NCBI GenBank assembly: GCA_005116745.1
Contig: SWDS01000001.1
Span: forward strand, 124,001-188,000
Direction of reading: 5' to 3'
DNA: 64,000 nucleotides
DNA from: Nitrospira sp.
Lineage (GTDB): Bacteria > Nitrospirota > Nitrospiria > Nitrospirales > Nitrospiraceae
Positions 2,286-63,434 of this stretch are shown here, in pieces. The notes under the pieces are model-generated. The model was given only the letters and a program-made list of their open reading frames with translations. It was not told the origin of the DNA and did no database searches. The stretch's first letter is position 1; each line of letters opens with the position of its first letter. The position numbers and the translations under genes are program-made.

Positions 2286-5200
2286 CTAGGCCGCCCGTTC
2301 GGCCAGGGCGTTCGCATAGTGGGTGATTGCCGCGAGGAGGGTCTTCTTCTTGATTGGTTTTGTTAGATGGGCCGTGCAGCCTGCGCCCAGACTCTTTTCC
2401 GATTCTTCCTTGAATGCATTCGCGGTGAGGGCCACGATCGGCGTCGGTCTGCGCTGTTGTTCGCGCTCCCATTGGCGCATGACCATCGTCGCCTGGAGAC
2501 CGTCCATGACCGGCATCTGCATGTCCATCAACACCAAATCGTAGGTGCCGGTCTGGAACTTCTGGAGGGCCACTGCCCCGTTTTCCGCCATATCCAATTG
2601 ATACGAGGTCTCTCTCAGAAAAAGGGCGATCACATCGCGATTATCTTCTAGGTCTTCTACCAATAGAATGCGACAGGACGGCAGCGTGGACCGCTCCGGC
2701 ACTGCCTCCGGTTGTTGCCAAGACGGTCCGGGCATCGCTGAGTTTAATGCGGTAGCCAGTGATTCCATCAGGCGCCGCCGACTGAGCGGCTTGTAGAGGT
2801 AGCTTGTGATCCCCAATGACCTGGCTTGGCGGGTGTCGTCGCGCTGAAGGTCCGAGACATGCATAACTAGAGGCAGTGTCGCAAACTCTTGTCGGTCACG
2901 GATGGCCTCTGCGAGTTCCAGCCCATTCATGCCGGGCATATGGTAGTCCACAATTGCCAGATGGAAGGGTTCGCCACGTTGGTGGGCGTCATGCAGTGCC
3001 GTCAGCGCCAAGAGTCCATTGGGAACTTCACGACAGTGAGCATCCAGGCGTACTAAGTGTTCCCGGACGATCATGCGATTCATGTCGTTGTCATCCACAA
3101 TAAGGATGCGGTGATCCCGCAGTGTGGTCAAAGTCTGAATGGGGCGGACCTCTGGTGCATCGGTCGCAGGCACACGGAGGACAAAGGAGAACGTACTGCC
3201 CTCTCCTTCCGTGCTAGAGACATCGATTGTGCTCCCCATCAAGGTGATCATCCGCTTACAGATACTCAACCCAAGGCCGGTACCTCCGTATTTTCTCGTC
3301 GTCGAGGAATCAACTTGAGAAAAATCTTCGAAGATCGTCTGCAGCCTATTCGTCGGAATTCCGATGCCGGTGTCTCGGACCGAAAAGCGCACGGCGGTCG
3401 GGTCATTCGGGTCATTGCCGGGGTCGATGCGCAGCACCACCTCGCCCCGCTCTGTAAATTTGATGGCGTTCCCGACCAGATTGACGAGGATTTGCCGTAA
3501 ACGGGTGGGATCGCCCAAGACATACTGGGGCACGTTGGAGTGGACGAAGCACATGAGCTCGATGTTCTTCCTGATAGTTCGGGAGGCCAGCAGCTCCACT
3601 GTCCGCTCGGCGAGGTCATGGAGATCGAGAGGGATCGATTCCAATTCAAAATGACCTGCCTCGATCCGTGAAATGTCCAGAACGTCGTTGAGTAAGTCCA
3701 GAAGGCTCGTGGCGGCTCGGGAGAATCGCAACACATATTCCTGCTGATCTCTCGAAAGCGTCGTTTCTTGCAGCAGATCAGCCATGCCGATAATCGCATT
3801 CATCGGTGTCCGAATTTCATGGCTCATCGTTGCCAGAAACTCGCTCTTCGCCCGCGTCGCTGCGAGGACGGTTTGGTTCGCTTCCAGCAGCTTGATATTC
3901 TTCGATGCCAATTCTTGCGCGATCACTTTCAACTTCTCTTCGGCCTGCTTGCGGGCGGTGATGTCATAGTTGATCCCAATCATCCGAACTGCCTTGCCCC
4001 CTTCGTCTTTGAGGACGATCGCGGAGGCTTTGATATGGCGGACAGCCCGGTCTGGAAGCACCACACGATATTCGGTGTCGAATTGATGTCGTCCCTCGAT
4101 GGTTGCTTGGAGGGCGGCTTCAGCATGCGATTTATCCTCGGGATGTAAGCGGCTGTTCCAGGCTTCATGGGCGGCAGGAAAGTCCTCAATCGTGTACCCG
4201 TAGAGGTGGTACATCTGTGCGTCCCAGACCATTTTATTTTCGGGAATGTAGAAGTCCCATACACCGATGCCACCAGATTTCGTGGCCAGCTCCAGCCGCT
4301 GGATGGTGTCGTACAGGATCTGCTCAAGAGCCTTTTGCTCGGTTATATCCTGAACGGTGCCGGTCATGCGTGTCGGGCGGCCCTCGGGATCGCGTGTCAC
4401 GGTCCCGCGACACAAAATGTGCCGCAGTTCTCCGTGCGTGCGAATAATCCTGCAGATCATCTCATAGGGGTGATTCTGTTCGAGCGCGTCTTCAACGGCC
4501 TTGAACACCTTGGCTCGGTCCTCGGGATGGATCGCCTCGCGGAAGGTGTCGTGCGTGGGCGTGATCGCTCGCGGCGCATAGCCGAAGATTCGAAATTGTT
4601 CATCTGACCAGATCTCGGCACCCGTTGTAATGTCCCATTCCCAACTGCCGACATGGGCGATGGCCTGAGCTTGAGCCAGGCGTTCCCGATGAGTTTCCAG
4701 CTGACGCTGCACGGTGACACGCGTTGTCACATCCCGGCAGGTGCACATGAGCCAGTGAGCGGGATCCTGTCCCTCTTGCGAGAGGACGAGGGAGATTTCG
4801 GCACAGATCTCCCGGCCTGATTTGGTGAGGCCTTGCACCTCGCCGGACCACTGTCCGACATGTAGTAGGATCGGAAAATACTGCTGTTCGATCTTGGCAA
4901 CCCACTCTGGCGCGTACAAGGTTTTCCAGGAGCAGCCGATCAACTCCTCTGGCTTGTACCCGTAGATGGTGGCATGTGCTGGGTTCATGTAGGTGAAGCG
5001 GCCTTCCTTGTCCAGGAACGCCAAGCCCTCCAACCCGTGATCGAGCGCCCGAATGATGTCGGCTTTTGACCGTTCGCTCTTTTGGTGCACTGCAAGGCTA
5101 CATTCGAGTTCGTGCTGACGCCTCCGTAGCTCAAGTTGAGTGACGACTTGCCGGCTTAAAATACGGAGCGCGTTCATTTGATCGCTCGTCAACTGTTTGG

Positions 5201-55868: not shown

Positions 55869-55989
55869 TCAGTAAGCTAGGTCTGAGTTAAACCTAAAAG
55901 GGAGCCGGATCTTGCGTTGACACATTGAGTATTCTGTCCGAAGACCGTCTACCTATGCATAACATAGGACTGGGCACCTTGCTTCACAT

Positions 55990-56262
55990 TCATTCCCAGG
56001 CCTGCTTTCCTCGTTTCAGCAACGCCTTGAACAGCGGTTTTATCTCTTTGCTGACATTGCGGCAGCGTTGGCGCTGGCGTTCAGCCATGCGTCCTGCGAC
56101 GAATCCGGCGCGGACACTCGTCGAGTATTTGAGGAACTGTCGGACGTGACGTTCGGCTTGGATCGCATCCTGATGGATGCCTAGTAGATCCTGGACCGCA
56201 TGCGCGGACTTGATAAACCGGCTGGCTGGTTTCCCTACCGAGCTGCGAGCTGGTTCCCCCAT
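55990..56262 (-). pseudogene. Truncated CHAD-domain 3' end, duplicate
   Basis: A fragment encoding the last 85 or so residues of a CHAD protein (KPASRFIKS, LKYSTSVRAGFVAGRMAE, ending at a stop). It is a close copy of the 3' end of the CYTH-CHAD gene at 57005 and has nothing in front of it but unrelated sequence. It is not a functional gene. The two copies bracket the DUF433/DUF5615 pair. Confidence 0.85.
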
Positions 56263-56319
56263 ATAGCGTGTGCATAACATTACCTTGGCATCGTTGGGCA
56301 GGAGCTGTAGAATGGCTCC

Positions 56320-56559
56320 ATGTCTCGCGACAATTTACTTTCACGTATCACCGTCGATCCGGAACTCTGTCACGGGAAGCCCTGCATTCGTGGTTTGAGG
56401 TATCCTGTGGAAAGCATTCTCGAGTATTTAGCCGGGGGAGATTCCGTGGAGCAGGTGTTGGCTGAGTTCCCTGATCTGGAGCGAGACGATATTTTGGCCT
56501 GCCTGGAGTTTTCCCGAAAGATGTTGGCTGCCAAAAGTGTTCATCTGGCCTTGAAGTGA
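56320..56559 (+). CDS. DUF433 family protein, antitoxin-like (second copy)
   Basis: A 79-residue DUF433 protein with the full family pattern: ITVDPELCHGKPCIRGLR, the VESILEYLAGGDS turn and VLAEFPDLERDDILACLEF. It is a better match to the family than the copy in the restriction island. The stop overlaps the next start. Predicted antitoxin of the following PIN-like protein, by family association. Confidence 0.85.
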   Translation: MSRDNLLSRITVDPELCHGKPCIRGLRYPVESILEYLAGGDSVEQVLAEFPDLERDDILACLEFSRKMLAAKSVHLALK

Positions 56560-56909
56560 AGTTTCTCCTCGATGCGCATCTGCCACGCCGTCTCTGTGTT
56601 CTTCTCGAAGAACGTGGACATGATGCGATCCACACGCTGAATCTCTCGGCGGGTAATCACACGAAAGATTCAGTGATCAGTGAGATATCTGTGAGTGAAC
56701 AGCGAGTCGTGGTCTCCAAAGACTCGGATTTTGTGTATTCCCATGTGTTACATGGACGCCCATGGAAATTGCTTTTGATCAAAACAGGTAACATAGCTGC
56801 TCATGACTTGAGAGCCTTGCTCGGTCGCCACTTGCCTGCCATTGAGCGGCTTCTCGAAACCCACACCTTGGTCGAAGTCGATCGATCATCCGTCACTCCC
56901 GTGATCTAG
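56556..56909 (+). CDS. DUF5615 PIN-like protein, toxin-like (second copy)
   Basis: A 117-residue PIN-like protein starting with a GTG that overlaps the DUF433 stop. Acidic residues of the fold are at D7 (LLDAHLPRRL), the NHTKD region and KDSDF. LLLIKTGN marks the last strand. Predicted RNase toxin. Together with DUF433 it forms a compact module between two copies of the CHAD 3' end. Confidence 0.83.
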   Translation: MKFLLDAHLPRRLCVLLEERGHDAIHTLNLSAGNHTKDSVISEISVSEQRVVVSKDSDFVYSHVLHGRPWKLLLIKTGNIAAHDLRALLGRHLPAIERLLETHTLVEVDRSSVTPVI

Positions 56910-57004
56910 CCAAGATCCTTGATTTTTCAGCCAATGCAGATGGAGACAATGCGGCCTGTCCTGCGCTGACGAAGCGACCGTTCTGTGGGCAACTTCCTCC
57001 CTGT

Positions 57005-58554
57005 TCATCCCCACGCTTTCTTCCCTCGTTTCAGCAGCGTCTTGAACAACGGTTTTATGCCCTGGCGCACGAGTTTACGCCGTTGTCGTTGGCGTTCGGC
57101 CATGCGTCCTGCGACGAATCCCGCACGGACACTCGTCGAGTATTTGAGGAACTGTCGGACGTGACGTTCGGCTTGGATCGCATCCTGATGGAGGCCCAGG
57201 AGGTTCTGGACCGCACGCGTGGACTTGATAAACCTGCTGGCTGGTTTCCCTACTGAGCTGCGAGCAAGTTCCGCTGCGTAGCGGGCGCGTTTAGCCTTGA
57301 TGCGGATCTTGTGCAGTGCGGTATCCGACGAGGAAGGAGTGAGTCGGCTGATCGCTTTGCGCAACTTCGTGAATTCCCGTCTGGCGAGGTCGCGCACGGT
57401 CAGAGGAGACTCCATGACCGAGGGGGCCTGTGTCGCTTGTTGAAGCCGACGGATCAGTTCCACGTAGCGAGCGCCTGTGAGTTCGCTAATCACCATCTGC
57501 TGAACGGCCTCCCGTTGCGTGTGTAGATGGGCGATGAATGGTGCCAGCAGCTTGCGATCTCGCGCATCTAAATTGGCAGATTCTTCCGTGAAATGGGCGA
57601 TCTGGACGTCGAGATCGCGGGCCGGGCCCAGCAGCTTGCTGAGCCATGTGAGCTCCTGTTCCAGTGTCGTGACCCATGCGGGAAGGAGGATCGGCCGGGC
57701 TGTGCGGAGTACTGCGCGCAGACGCCTGGTCGCGACGCGTAGTTGATGCAGGCTCTCAGGCTCGGTGCCGAGTCTCGTGCCGGGATCATAGGCCAGAAGC
57801 CATCCGACGTGCTGTGCAAGTGCCCACTTGAGATAGTCGACCACCGGGGCCTTTGGCTCAGGCGGTGCAGAGGGGGTGGGGGCTGGGAGCGAGAGGGCCC
57901 GAAAGAACTTTGGCCGTCCGTCATGATCGGACGCTCCGGCCTCGCGCATCTGCTGTTCAAGGGAACGAAGCGAGGCCTCGTCGCCCTGCCGCTGTTCGAT
58001 TTCAAGTTCGCGAAAGCGTTGGATGATACCGCCGTTCTTCTCAACAGCCACTGTGTCGAGGGCAATCTCTCCGCGATGGGCACTCGGCCATGATGCACCA
58101 AGAAGCCCCGTCGCCAGACACGCAGGGTCACGACCGGCACCAGTTTGCGATGGCTGAGATAGAGCATCAGCAGCTGGCGCAAGGAGTCTGGTGGATTGGC
58201 TTGGGTGCCAGCCACTTCTATCTCCTGCCGATCATCACCCAACGGGAGTTTCAGCTGCCAGGCCCTTTTCCCCCGGTCGATTCGATAGCGCAAGGTGATC
58301 CGTGCGTGGGCCAGATCATAGGCCGTGGTGTCGTAATAGGTGGAGATCACCAGCTTCCGAGGCAGCGACACCCCGGGCAGCCGAGGCAGACGGAAATCAG
58401 GTGTGACGGTCAGCTTCCGTTCGCGTTCTCGTTGTGAAGAGATCGGGGAGGAGCGACCATGAGGAGCGAGGTGGGTGTCCAATCGAGACAAGGTGGAATC
58501 CTCACGGCAGAACCGGCGCCTGTAAGTATCAACGCAGGAGAGAGGGAAACGCAA
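57005..58554 (-). pseudogene. CYTH-CHAD protein gene with frameshift
   Basis: The 5' part (down to about 58072) encodes a CYTH domain with the ExExK-type signature ERERK; the 3' part (from about 58072 to 57005) encodes a CHAD domain with LHQLRVATRRLRA and the duplicated C-terminus. They are in different frames. Removing two bases from the AGAGAG run at 58066-58071 joins them as VPIAEIALDTVAVEKNG, the expected bridge. CYTH domains act on triphosphates; CHAD binds polyphosphate. A genuine mutation or an assembly error are both possible. The start is taken as TTG 58554 and is uncertain. Confidence 0.85.
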
Positions 58555-59058: not shown

Positions 59059-59131
59059 AATCTGATCCTCCATTTTATTGTTGTAGTGGATCCAGGCTAT
59101 CAATGACGTGTTGCGTTGGCGTTAGGCGGGG

Positions 59132-59149
59132 ATTACAGAAAGGTAACAT
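59132..59149 (-). promoter_or_regulatory. Possible Pho-box-like direct repeat
   Basis: On the minus strand ATGTTAC, four bases, then CTGTAAT, an 11-base period as in PhoB sites. It is 74 bases upstream of the CBS gene start. No good -10 follows at the expected distance, so this is weak. Confidence 0.3.
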
Positions 59150-59493: not shown

Positions 59494-59788
59494 AGGGATC
59501 GAACCTAACCTATAGTCAGGAAGCATCCAGTCGTATGCTGAGCGCTTGCGAGATTGGTGGAGGTGCGTCCCTGCAAGGCGACGAATGACGAGACTCTATA
59601 TTGACGCGACCTCAGGGCGCATCATCAAGTTGATACGGAGGTCGCAGTAATGAAGTTGGGTCTTGTCTATTGCCGAAAGCGAATTCTTCCTCCTGACGAG
59701 AGCCGGTGGGTTGAGTATCTCCCCCTCCGGCTTTCGTCTTCTCCTTTCCCCTCACAGCCGTATCTCCACTTCTTTCTAGTCGCATCAT

Positions 59789-59872
59789 CTACTTGCGTCC
59801 CAGGGATAACACGGTGTATGTGAGTCCCAGAATAGCGCTCAATAGTAACGCTTCGATGATCCACTGTGTCAT
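59789..59872 (-). CDS. 27-residue single-pass membrane peptide
   Basis: An ATG at 59872 follows AAGGAGGTGA, complementary to the 3' end of 16S rRNA, at a spacing of six. The peptide begins MTQWIIEALLL, continues with a hydrophobic run and ends TVLSLGRK, the layout of small membrane-complex subunits such as KdpF or CydX, though no partner operon is next to it. Too short for family assignment. The near-perfect ribosome-binding site argues strongly that it is translated. Confidence 0.6.
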   Translation of the reverse strand: MTQWIIEALLLSAILGLTYTVLSLGRK

Positions 59873-60147
59873 GGCTTGTCACCTCCTTCCGGCTTAGTGT
59901 TCGACAGTGATAATTACCGACCCCACTGATCAACATGGTGGAAGTCTACAGGGGCACTGTTTCGCGGCCATTACAGAGGTGCTAATTCTGTGTGAAAGGA
60001 TGGTGTGATGATCGTAACGGGAGGATTCTGACGCGAGATATGGCCAAGCAGGATGTGGTTACCTTCCCTATTCGTTCGCCCTGACAGCTGCGTGTGTGGC
60101 CAGGTGGGTAGCTGTGAACACAATCTGGCAAGAGTAGGCGAGTACCG

Positions 60148-60798
60148 TTACTCGAATTCCTCCCATCCGCTCAAACGACTGCCGAAGACCAGCGTTCGCT
60201 TTGTGGTGGAAACGAGAATGAGCCCATTGTCATTCTCCACACCCACGATGCGCTCATGCACATCCAACAACTTCGATGCGAAGCCGCCGAGCAGTGGTGT
60301 GAATCCAACCACACGCTCATTGGTGATGAAGACTGCTCCATAGTCGTTGCTGTGAAAGCGAGTCACTTTTTCACGTACACCTAATGCTTCTTCGAGCCAT
60401 AGGCCGTTGACGCCCCGAAATCCGTACAGATGTCGATCCGTCCTGATGAGACTGAAGCTTGGGAGGATTGTCCGCTCGAGAACCTTTTCATTCACGTCCA
60501 GTTCTTTCTTGCTCCAGGTCAGGGCACGGCTTGAAAACCCTAAGAGCCGACGAGACGTCACCATGATGCCATTGATCCCATTCGTGCCTGAGCTGATGAC
60601 CACTTCCTGAGCTCCCAACGGTATTTCCCTCCGGCCGCTCAATTGACTGGTCGCGACAGCTTGACCAGACTCCAGCCACACCGTTACTTCAGGCTGGAGC
60701 TCTGCTCGGGTGATACTCTGTGAAAGGAGCCAGCTCAAAGAAAGGCAGGCGATGAAGCATAGCCGATTTGCTGCGGACGCGGTTCCAAAAGCATTCAT
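60148..60798 (-). CDS. Secreted repeat protein, hypothetical
   Basis: About 216 residues from the ATG at 60798; a GTG at 60813 is also possible. An N-terminal signal peptide (cleavage near TRA-E) is followed by four degenerate repeats of about 40 residues, each with a hydrophobic strand, R-x-L-x-GF and a later L-D-V-x-E-x-V: for example RRLLGFSSR with LDVNEKV, RVVGFTPLL with LDVHERI. The pattern suggests a small beta-propeller or beta-solenoid in the periplasm. Not recognised as a named family. Confidence 0.65.
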   Translation of the reverse strand: MNAFGTASAANRLCFIACLSLSWLLSQSITRAELQPEVTVWLESGQAVATSQLSGRREIPLGAQEVVISSGTNGINGIMVTSRRLLGFSSRALTWSKKELDVNEKVLERTILPSFSLIRTDRHLYGFRGVNGLWLEEALGVREKVTRFHSNDYGAVFITNERVVGFTPLLGGFASKLLDVHERIVGVENDNGLILVSTTKRTLVFGSRLSGWEEFE

Positions 60799-61076
60799 GA
60801 TTTGTCTAAACACACTAACATACGAAGTACCACGGCTGATTACTCTATCCGGTCGGAGAAGGCTATGTCAGGCTAAGCGACCTTCAAGGCACACACGAAA
60901 TCGAAGATTGACTGTCGGCAGTCTCTCGGCGTAATGGCTCTCACTCGAGAATCAGTAGGAGATAATAGGCGAGCTGGCTCTTACGCCACGAATGTTCCTT
61001 GAAACCAACGCATTGATTTCACGAACACCAGTAGTTGCCAGCGGTATGTACGGCACGAGATCTAAATGTTACAGAT

Positions 61077-61122
61077 CTGTAACGCTCCTGTAATGATGTT
61101 GTGATCGGATGCGGGATAAACT
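61077..61122 (+). promoter_or_regulatory. Pho box and -10 element upstream of ppk
   Basis: Three direct repeats with an 11-base period, CTGTAAC (61077), CTGTAAT (61088) and TTGTGAT (61099), are followed after 11 bases by TAAACT (61117-61122), a good -10. This is the layout of PhoB-activated promoters, where the Pho box replaces the -35. The ppk start codon is 174 bases further on. It predicts induction of ppk under phosphate limitation. Confidence 0.7.
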
Positions 61123-61295
61123 CTCACGATTTGCCGGTTGGTAGCTTGATCAGAATCGAAGTGGCATCTGTTGGCAGCGTCACGGTGTGTGTTTTCCCAG
61201 ACCGTGGCGGCGTGCCTTTTCTGAACAGGATCAGTCCCTCCATGTAGAATGCGAAAGAACAGGTGCAAGAGAGTGTTCATCCTCAAGGAGGTTCC

Positions 61296-63434
61296 ATGAT
61301 CGATCAGTCTGCTGGGTCTGGAGAATCAGCAGCCGAGCCAGAGCAGGGTATCGATGAGTCGCGCCATCTCCTGAATCGAGAGCTCAGCTGGCTGCGATTC
61401 AATCTGCGGGTCCTTGAAGAAGCCGAGGACAAGCGGCACCCTCTCTTGGAACGAGTGAAGTTTCTGGCGATCTTCGCCACGAATCTGGATGAGTTTTTCA
61501 TGATTCGAGTCTCAGGTCTCCATCGTCAGGTGGCTGGCGGAATCGTCGGAACGACGCCAGACGGCATGACTCCATCAGAGCAAATACTGACGATCAACCG
61601 AGAACTGATGGTCCACTATGAACGATACGATACGTGCTGGAAACAGGATGTGTTGCCAGGGTTGGCAGAGGCAGGCATTCGCATTCTACATTATGCGGAG
61701 TTGGCGCAGCGGGAACGAGAGGCGATCCAAGGGTACTTTCAGCGAGAAATATTTCCAGTGCTGACTCCGCTCGCCTTTGACCCGACCCATCCGTTCCCTC
61801 ATATCTCGAGTCTGAGCTTTAATCTTGCCGTATTGGTAAAGGACCCTGATCACGGTGACTGTTTCGCGCGCGTCAAAGTGCCTGATGTCTTCCCGCGACT
61901 GGTGCCGATCCCCACAGATGAGGATGTTGCCCGTCACCAGATGGGCTTGGGCGGAGCTGGAGGAGTGCAGCAATTTGTCTGGCTGGAAGAGGTTATTGCG
62001 CACAACCTGGACAATCTCTTCCCTGGTTTGGACGTTGTCGCATCCTATCCATTCCGTGTGACGCGAGATGCCGATGTTGCGATTGAGGTAGACGAAGCAT
62101 CGGATCTTATCGAGGCGGTGGAAGCACAGCTCGATCAGCGACAGTACACGTCAGCCGTTCGCTTGGAATTGGATGTGGCGACACCCAGTCCCATCCGCGA
62201 AATCCTGACAAGAAACCTTCAGCTCCCATCGTACCTTGTCTATGCAGGACACAGCCCGATCGGGATGGCTGGGATTCGTGAACTGCATGCACTTGAGCGT
62301 CCTGACCTAAAAGATCAGCCGTTTGTTCCGGCCGTCCCTCCCTGCGTGAGTAAATCAGGCAGTCTTTTGGCTGCCATTCGTCAGCAGGACGTGCTGTTGT
62401 ATCATCCGTATGACAGCTTCATGCCGGTTGTGGAGTTTCTGCGAGAAGCCGCAAACGACCCAGACGTCCTCGCCATTAAACAGACCCTCTATCGCGTCAA
62501 TCCAAAATCACCCATTGTCGATGCGCTGCTGGAAGCTCGCGTCAACGGTAAACAAGTTGCGGTCTTGGTTGAGCTCAAGGCCCGATTCGACGAAGAAAAT
62601 AACATTGAATGGGCCCGGAAGCTTGAAGACGAAGGTGTGCACGTTGTGTACGGTGTGCGCGGGCTCAAGACGCATGCGAAGGTCTGTCTCATCGTCCGGC
62701 GCGAACCGGAGGGGATCCGCCGCTATGTCCATCTCGGCACCGGAAATTATAACGTGGTCACCAGTCGTATCTATACCGATGCGAGCTACTTTACGTGTGA
62801 TCCTGCCATTAGCCACGATGTATCCAATCTGTTCAACTCACTGACTGGGTACTCCCGCAAAAACATGTATTCCAAGTTGCTCGTTGCACCGACAACACTC
62901 AGGCAGCAACTACTCGATCGGATCGAGCGAGAGACCTGCCGCCACCGGCAGTATAGTGATGGGTATATCGCCTTCAAGATGAATGCATTGGTCGATGCGC
63001 AGTGTATCCAGGCTCTGTACCTTGCATCGCAAGCCGGAGTCAAAATTGACCTTCAGGTGCGGGGTATTTGTTGCCTAAAGCCGGGTCTTCAAGGGATCAG
63101 TGAGACCATCACCGTCACGTCAGTAGTTGGGCGTTTTCTGGAACACGCGCGGATCTACTATTTTCGCAACGGCGGGCACGACGATATGTTGATGGGGAGC
63201 GCCGATCTGATGCCTCGAAATCTGGACCACAGAGTGGAAGTGCTGTTTCCTGTAGAAGATCCTCAGTGGCGCGAGGTCATCATCAATGACATCCTCGGTG
63301 TTGGGCTACGAGACAATGTGCAGGCAAGGCGGTTGCTTCCCGACGGGACGTATGAGCGTAAGCAGCCGGCAAACGGTGAAGCTGCATTTAATTCTCAGCA
63401 ATGGATTTTGGAGCACTGGAAACCTAGATTATAA
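61296..63434 (+). CDS. ppk: Polyphosphate kinase 1
   Basis: A 712-residue PPK1 from the ATG at 61296, which has AAGGAGG five bases upstream. The N-terminal domain (LNRELSWLRFNLRVLEEAED), the head domain and both phospholipase D-like catalytic domains are present; the autophosphorylated histidine is H460 in GLKTHAKVC, and HLGTGNYN follows. It makes polyphosphate from ATP reversibly. It stands alone behind a Pho box, with the CYTH-CHAD gene 3 kb away. Confidence 0.95.
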   Translation: MIDQSAGSGESAAEPEQGIDESRHLLNRELSWLRFNLRVLEEAEDKRHPLLERVKFLAIFATNLDEFFMIRVSGLHRQVAGGIVGTTPDGMTPSEQILTINRELMVHYERYDTCWKQDVLPGLAEAGIRILHYAELAQREREAIQGYFQREIFPVLTPLAFDPTHPFPHISSLSFNLAVLVKDPDHGDCFARVKVPDVFPRLVPIPTDEDVARHQMGLGGAGGVQQFVWLEEVIAHNLDNLFPGLDVVASYPFRVTRDADVAIEVDEASDLIEAVEAQLDQRQYTSAVRLELDVATPSPIREILTRNLQLPSYLVYAGHSPIGMAGIRELHALERPDLKDQPFVPAVPPCVSKSGSLLAAIRQQDVLLYHPYDSFMPVVEFLREAANDPDVLAIKQTLYRVNPKSPIVDALLEARVNGKQVAVLVELKARFDEENNIEWARKLEDEGVHVVYGVRGLKTHAKVCLIVRREPEGIRRYVHLGTGNYNVVTSRIYTDASYFTCDPAISHDVSNLFNSLTGYSRKNMYSKLLVAPTTLRQQLLDRIERETCRHRQYSDGYIAFKMNALVDAQCIQALYLASQAGVKIDLQVRGICCLKPGLQGISETITVTSVVGRFLEHARIYYFRNGGHDDMLMGSADLMPRNLDHRVEVLFPVEDPQWREVIINDILGVGLRDNVQARRLLPDGTYERKQPANGEAAFNSQQWILEHWKPRL

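Follow-up and report, generated by a model that had tools for sequence, protein, structure and literature searches.

MgrB, a 47-residue PhoP-induced protein, belongs to the regulon of PhoQ and inhibits PhoQ itself (PMC8404706, PMC2789325), and small DUF1127 proteins act on PhoR in Agrobacterium (PMC12501420). Here, we describe a peptide gene from Nitrospira that shares with MgrB the plan of a tiny single-pass peptide under two-component induction (predicted in our case) and with the DUF1127 proteins a small product tied to phosphate control. Unlike MgrB, the Nitrospira peptide has 27 rather than 47 residues, no periplasmic domain, no cysteines and a different regulon, and it shows no sequence match to MgrB, including in Pfam and NCBIfam. 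Nor does it match DUF1127, a different sequence family whose members are not established as Pho-induced transmembrane peptides. In having one transmembrane helix and fewer than 50 residues, it also resembles KdpF and AcrZ; there was no Pfam or NCBIfam match to KdpF and no kdp synteny, and one paralogue matched AcrZ at E = 0.17, below the cut-off, with no efflux synteny. Some family members carry a short IExxLxxxIxGL stretch like that of the cytochrome b6f subunit PetG (PF02529), for which the best match (E = 0.008, 16.4 bits against a cut-off of 23.7) spans 14 residues, with no cytochrome-complex linkage.

The gene lies on the minus strand of the window, by which we mean the whole 64-kb stretch of DNA analysed (positions 124,001 to 188,000 of contig SWDS01000001.1, assembly GCA_005116745.1). 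It runs from an ATG at 59872 to the end of a TAG codon at 59789, encoding the single-transmembrane peptide MTQWIIEALLLSAILGLTYTVLSLGRK, and its Shine-Dalgarno sequence, AAGGAGGTGA (59879..59888, minus strand), stands six nucleotides before the ATG and occurs just once on the two strands of the window. Genome-wide, the perfect Shine-Dalgarno pattern AAGGRGGTGA-N3-9-ATG was found at seven distinct sites in 3.86 Mb, with none for the reversed pattern used as a control; four of these precede single-transmembrane peptides of 26–29 residues, the window’s peptide among them, and the other three precede an rpsB-like ORF of 257 residues, a 51-residue ORF and a five-codon ORF. An initial annotation, made from the letters of the window, had proposed an unannotated 27-residue peptide gene with an ideal ribosome-binding site six bases before the ATG; both elements were located and are conserved, and the product is, as proposed, a single-pass peptide with a basic C-terminus.

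Peptide length, start codon and Shine-Dalgarno sequence are kept across Nitrospira, the last as (G)AAAGGAGGTGA in relatives of the window’s form (type A), and a search of the type-A orthologues for stops or frameshifts within the 27 codons found none. The exceptions are a copy interrupted by a run of N (L028) and an unlinked paralogue that has lost the start codon aligned with the others (L062). Among the diverged pairs listed, pN was 0.02–0.16 against a pS of 0.25–0.89; one example pair of loci showed 14 synonymous against 2 non-synonymous changes, and 20 pooled type-A loci gave a pS of 0.57, a pN of 0.24 and a pN/pS of 0.42. Because length and frame are conserved and pN lies well under pS, the ORF goes beyond chance and, on this comparative evidence, is a genuine gene under purifying selection.

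Of 79 same-genus genomes, 35 gave the peptide in a search with the single sequence and 57 gave the family with a profile built from 30 members (E ≤ 1), at up to 14 copies per genome. The species scan used patterns from a narrower type-A alignment, the 30-row alignment having no conserved stretch for back-translation; among 84,980 named species, it returned 14 loci, of which 13 were titled Nitrospira or Nitrospiraceae and the fourteenth, titled ‘uncultured Nitrosospira’, is the same contig as one of the same-genus genomes. At the sensitivity used, these patterns had no match in viral contigs or, at the DNA level, in plasmids. Matches of the peptides in Pfam, NCBIfam and PHROGs were all sub-threshold, Rfam gave nothing near a gathering score at the locus, and a limited literature search found no report of such peptides in Nitrospira. 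The family appears from these searches to be specific to the genus, the profile giving no convincing member beyond it among 295 phylum genomes sampled, a set that contains the same-genus ones. E7 is invariant in types A, B and P (the last two described below), and I6, G16 and Y19 are nearly so.

Upstream of the gene, on the minus strand, we found a tandem 11-bp repeat resembling a Pho box, TTCACACAGAA TTAGCACCTCT GTAATGGCCGC GAAACAG (59957..59996), with a conserved −10-like hexamer, TAGACT, recognised by eye downstream of it within TGTAGACTTCC (59940..59950); type-A loci have TTCACACAGAATTGGCACGTTCGTAACGAAAAGGAAACA in common, then TAGACT. Pho-type tandem repeats also lie upstream of ppk1 (TGTTACAGATC TGTAACGCTCC TGTAATGATGT TGTGATC, 61067..61106, plus strand) and of a gene for a CBS-domain protein (59110..59147, minus strand; exact pattern match G000:C1:183110-183146), where the half-site form is a tandem 11-bp GTAACGNNNNN. 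A matrix whose training set was the ppk1 and CBS promoters alone gave the window’s promoter a score of 11.7, against −9.3 ± 5.0 for shuffled sequences (0/200). Over 23 type-A loci, 11 stood at 0/200 shuffles and 15 at no more than 2/200, and none of 12 type-B control loci matched. The weak type-A promoters (14–27/200) include L035, L037, L039, L043 and L049; the best-scoring repeat registers in the matrix scan vary between species, and the promoters of L038, L040 and L044 are set farther upstream, ahead of another small ORF. A strict four-half-site pattern matched four sites in the genome and its reversed control none, the matches including the CBS promoter and a site just upstream of an ORF identified as PstS by TIGR02136, above cut-off. 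On the strength of these two matches, the repeat is very probably a Pho box, and tandem 11-bp half-sites are common to the promoters of the peptide gene, pstS and ppk1. Since ppk1 and the CBS gene have this promoter repeat too, as does pstS in this genome, we predict that the peptide gene is a member of the Pho regulon, with several orthologues scoring weakly. As a separate observation, a tiny peptide, MMTSSVVIVGTFVLGSLLGVLFKAFHAGRE, and others similar to it are placed behind a type-A promoter, in some cases followed by a type-A peptide and in others not (L149, L040, L044, L046).

The next gene downstream is that for the CBS-domain protein (PF00571; 58675..59103, minus strand), with its own Pho-type promoter. 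A 221-residue protein with no family assigned (60148..60813, minus strand) is the same-strand upstream neighbour in close relatives, and ppk1, encoding polyphosphate kinase (61263..63434, plus strand), is the divergent neighbour in 17 loci. CBS and CYTH-CHAD proteins are further neighbours in relatives, and PhoX, PsiE, PstS-like, CorA-like and histidine-phosphatase-family proteins recur nearby. Judged by its gene content, the neighbourhood is a phosphate and polyphosphate island. The peptide had originally been placed near a Pho-regulated gene, a claim that the repeat in its own promoter exceeds. The suggestion that it might be an overlooked subunit of a membrane complex fared less well and, though possible, suits the data less than a link to two-component systems does. 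The gene is syntenic with phosphate and polyphosphate genes, and its paralogues are syntenic with two-component systems. The suggestion is unsupported because there is no synteny with a respiratory or transport complex and because, unlike a fixed subunit, the family has a patchy distribution (57/79 genomes) and up to 14 copies.

Within the same region, the CYTH-CHAD gene (57005-58554, minus strand) is split into two overlapping ORFs of 348 and 328 residues in different frames, compared with a single ORF of about 494 residues in a relative, which suggests a frameshift or an assembly error. At 55925-57164, the C-terminal stretch of CHAD is duplicated (plus-strand reading ...RSAMRPATNPARTLVEYLRNCRT), and between the CHAD copies lie two small genes (56320-56559 and 56556-56909) that resemble a DUF433/DUF5615-type toxin-antitoxin pair; the arrangement is an apparent insertion with a duplicated target.

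About 50 nucleotides past the stop codon, the gene strand carries a hairpin with a conserved 12-pair stem, GACGAAAGCCGG..CCGGCTCTCGTC (59695..59738, minus strand; covariance-model match G000:C1:183687-183740). In 20 sequences, stem positions pair in 93% of cells, against 37–50% for slid versions, and 18 stem cells have changed on both sides, where shuffles give 5.7 (0/500). The G-U pairs point to the gene strand in most relatives, although the window’s copy has its one A-C mismatch there. The covariance model finds the hairpin beside type-A peptides in nearly all carriers, and it led to new loci (L148, L149, L152-L154), each with a perfect-Shine-Dalgarno peptide upstream, such as MMMLMLLNIGVLVIGAVFLMYGALGPDRK. 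We rejected a factor-independent terminator, as no T-run follows the hairpin and a terminator scan found none. Between the stop codon and the hairpin, a second motif like a Shine-Dalgarno and start, GGAG-N8-GTG (59753..59771, minus strand), is conserved; a conserved protein read from the GTG at about 59755 was rejected because its frame is broken in relatives, by a stop in L012 and by frameshifts in others. Predicted RNA folds gave no consistent picture of sequestration of the peptide’s Shine-Dalgarno sequence.

The window’s genome has three further such peptide genes, of types B, C and D. In most loci, type B (MISFIEVFLLAAIFGVLYAMLQLASR) comes immediately after a gene pair for a kinase and an OmpR-family regulator that are closest to CopR/CopS models, below cut-offs, and type C (MMTIFFALLALTAVLGVMYKAVYLDRE) follows about 550 bp after type B. 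The promoters of the two have a common element of their own, TCA at 11-bp steps, and a matrix built from B promoters matched 5/5 C promoters tested and 11/11 B copies outside the training set, including copies without an adjacent regulator; type-A and P-type promoters gave no match. Type D was examined in eight genomes. In seven, a HAMP/GAF kinase and a sigma-54-activating (NtrC-type) regulator precede it at a distance of about 450-530 bp, and in the eighth it follows the same pair with minor differences; a scan found a sigma-54-like GG-N10-GC site upstream of it in at least five of the eight. Judging from promoter elements and gene positions, three types of peptide thus appear to belong with three different two-component systems, of the Pho, OmpR and NtrC types. 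Homology of all four types is not certain, that of C and D with A and B resting on the gene plan more than on sequence. P-type copies (MMPWIIEPxLVGxIVGLxYxVVSAWRK; L051-L055, L064, L065, L069) are numerous in two genomes and make up many of the 14 copies in one; they lack both the A and the B promoter elements and show no two-component linkage.

Several other features accompany these genes. Type-D genes have, ahead of their hairpin, a GTG similar to that of the GGAG-N8-GTG motif of the window’s gene, and just upstream of type D, in most of the eight genomes, is a small membrane ORF, MLSDEMAMLTISGAICFAVTMLAMLMRKT (L163, reverse complement, ~4303-4396, with equivalents in L164-L170), which is broken in L166. 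In L053 and L054, a P-type copy is preceded by a second small membrane ORF (MMRAKSPLxQQTLAGITL...). Small membrane ORFs with perfect Shine-Dalgarno sequences, for example MPGMNDALSYIFLGIFVFAIIVFALFSAG, also occur in L207, L208, L210 and L213, from two Nitrospira genomes; these are apparently unrelated small membrane proteins, possibly respiratory subunits.

We tentatively favour the view, as plausible if somewhat short of probable, that the window’s gene is a monocistronic Pho-regulon mini-gene whose response-regulator-induced peptide modulates a partner in the membrane (a sensor kinase is the likeliest) by feedback like that of MgrB. The sequence supports the regulation well; the partner we infer. 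Under phosphate limitation, phosphorylated PhoB would turn the gene on and translation would be strong. The peptide would insert in the inner membrane with its basic C-terminus in the cytoplasm, and its helix, with the invariant Glu near the N-terminal end and the conserved Gly and Tyr, would dock on the partner’s transmembrane helices; a 27-residue helix with these three residues is most simply read as a helix-helix interaction module. The kinase of the inducing system is the most likely class of partner, which for the window’s copy would be PhoR, because each of the three sister genes is tied, through its location and its promoter element, to a two-component system; it is also the most economical, since what the types have in common is two-component control and not any one effector. 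By analogy with MgrB acting on PhoQ, the peptide may feed back on signalling, and the likeliest role of the stem-loop is to protect or delimit the short mRNA at its 3′ end. Against kinase feedback, membership of a regulon does not by itself make a peptide its regulator, MgrB serving as an analogy; P-type copies have neither A/B promoter elements nor two-component linkage; and no PhoBR genes were identified in the genome and no peptide was seen beside them. Placement in regulons is supported by promoter sequences for types A, B/C and D, and kinase modulation is predicted.

Small single-transmembrane modulators of transporters, such as AcrZ and KdpF, are common, and the peptide might instead serve some Pho-induced membrane protein as a modulator or small accessory subunit, candidates being the Pst permease, PsiE, a channel of the CorA type or polyphosphate machinery bound to the membrane. 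Its place in the phosphate island and the promoter type that it has in common with its neighbours would suit such a role, which we nevertheless think rather unlikely: the same family also sits beside unrelated two-component systems without phosphate genes, no single transporter accompanies all copies, and the profiles of KdpF and other subunit families gave nothing above cut-off. One family under three different regulators, with great sequence freedom beyond I6, E7, G16 and Y19, could suggest a general envelope-stress peptide, called on by several two-component systems to alter the membrane without a specific partner. The conservation of Glu, Gly and Tyr speaks for specific contacts, and purifying selection is strong across the 27 codons, making this distinctly unlikely.

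A type I toxin like Fst, Ldr or TisB, membrane-depolarising and controlled by antisense RNA, with a structured and stable mRNA, is suggested by the short hydrophobic helix, basic end, multiple copies, strong Shine-Dalgarno sequence and 3′ stem-loop, and P-type members weakly resemble Fst (PF13955, E = 0.022). That match, at 15.1 bits against a cut-off of 36, is far below the Pfam gathering score, and no match to Fst/Ldr families (PF13955, PF13940) reached its curated cut-off. The conserved promoters look like response-regulator targets, the Shine-Dalgarno sequence is not consistently sequestered in predicted folds, and viral contigs and plasmids gave no match at the sensitivity used. No antisense gene was detected, nor any sigma-70-like promoter on either strand between 59500 and 60200, in a scan that also misses the proposed promoter. 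We regard a toxin as improbable. That the RNA alone matters, as a small regulatory RNA with an incidental ORF, would account for the covarying hairpin; it is very improbable given the clear coding constraint and the conserved Shine-Dalgarno sequence, start and stop.

Returning to peptide feedback on a kinase, we propose, still more tentatively, that Nitrospira possesses a genus-specific toolkit of 26–30-residue single-transmembrane peptides that are wired to separate two-component systems, namely Pho, a CopRS-like pair and an NtrC-like pair, and serve as interchangeable modulators of kinases in the membrane. They would be built on one gene plan, of response-regulator promoter, perfect Shine-Dalgarno sequence, peptide and, in types A and D, 3′ stem-loop. 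The combination of a perfect Shine-Dalgarno sequence, a short hydrophobic ORF and a response-regulator box provides a simple search rule for such genes in Nitrospira. The finding gives this nitrifier of central environmental importance a class of genes that had gone undetected, and peptide feedback on kinases, known from single cases like MgrB, may here be the work of a multi-copy family across the regulons of one genome.
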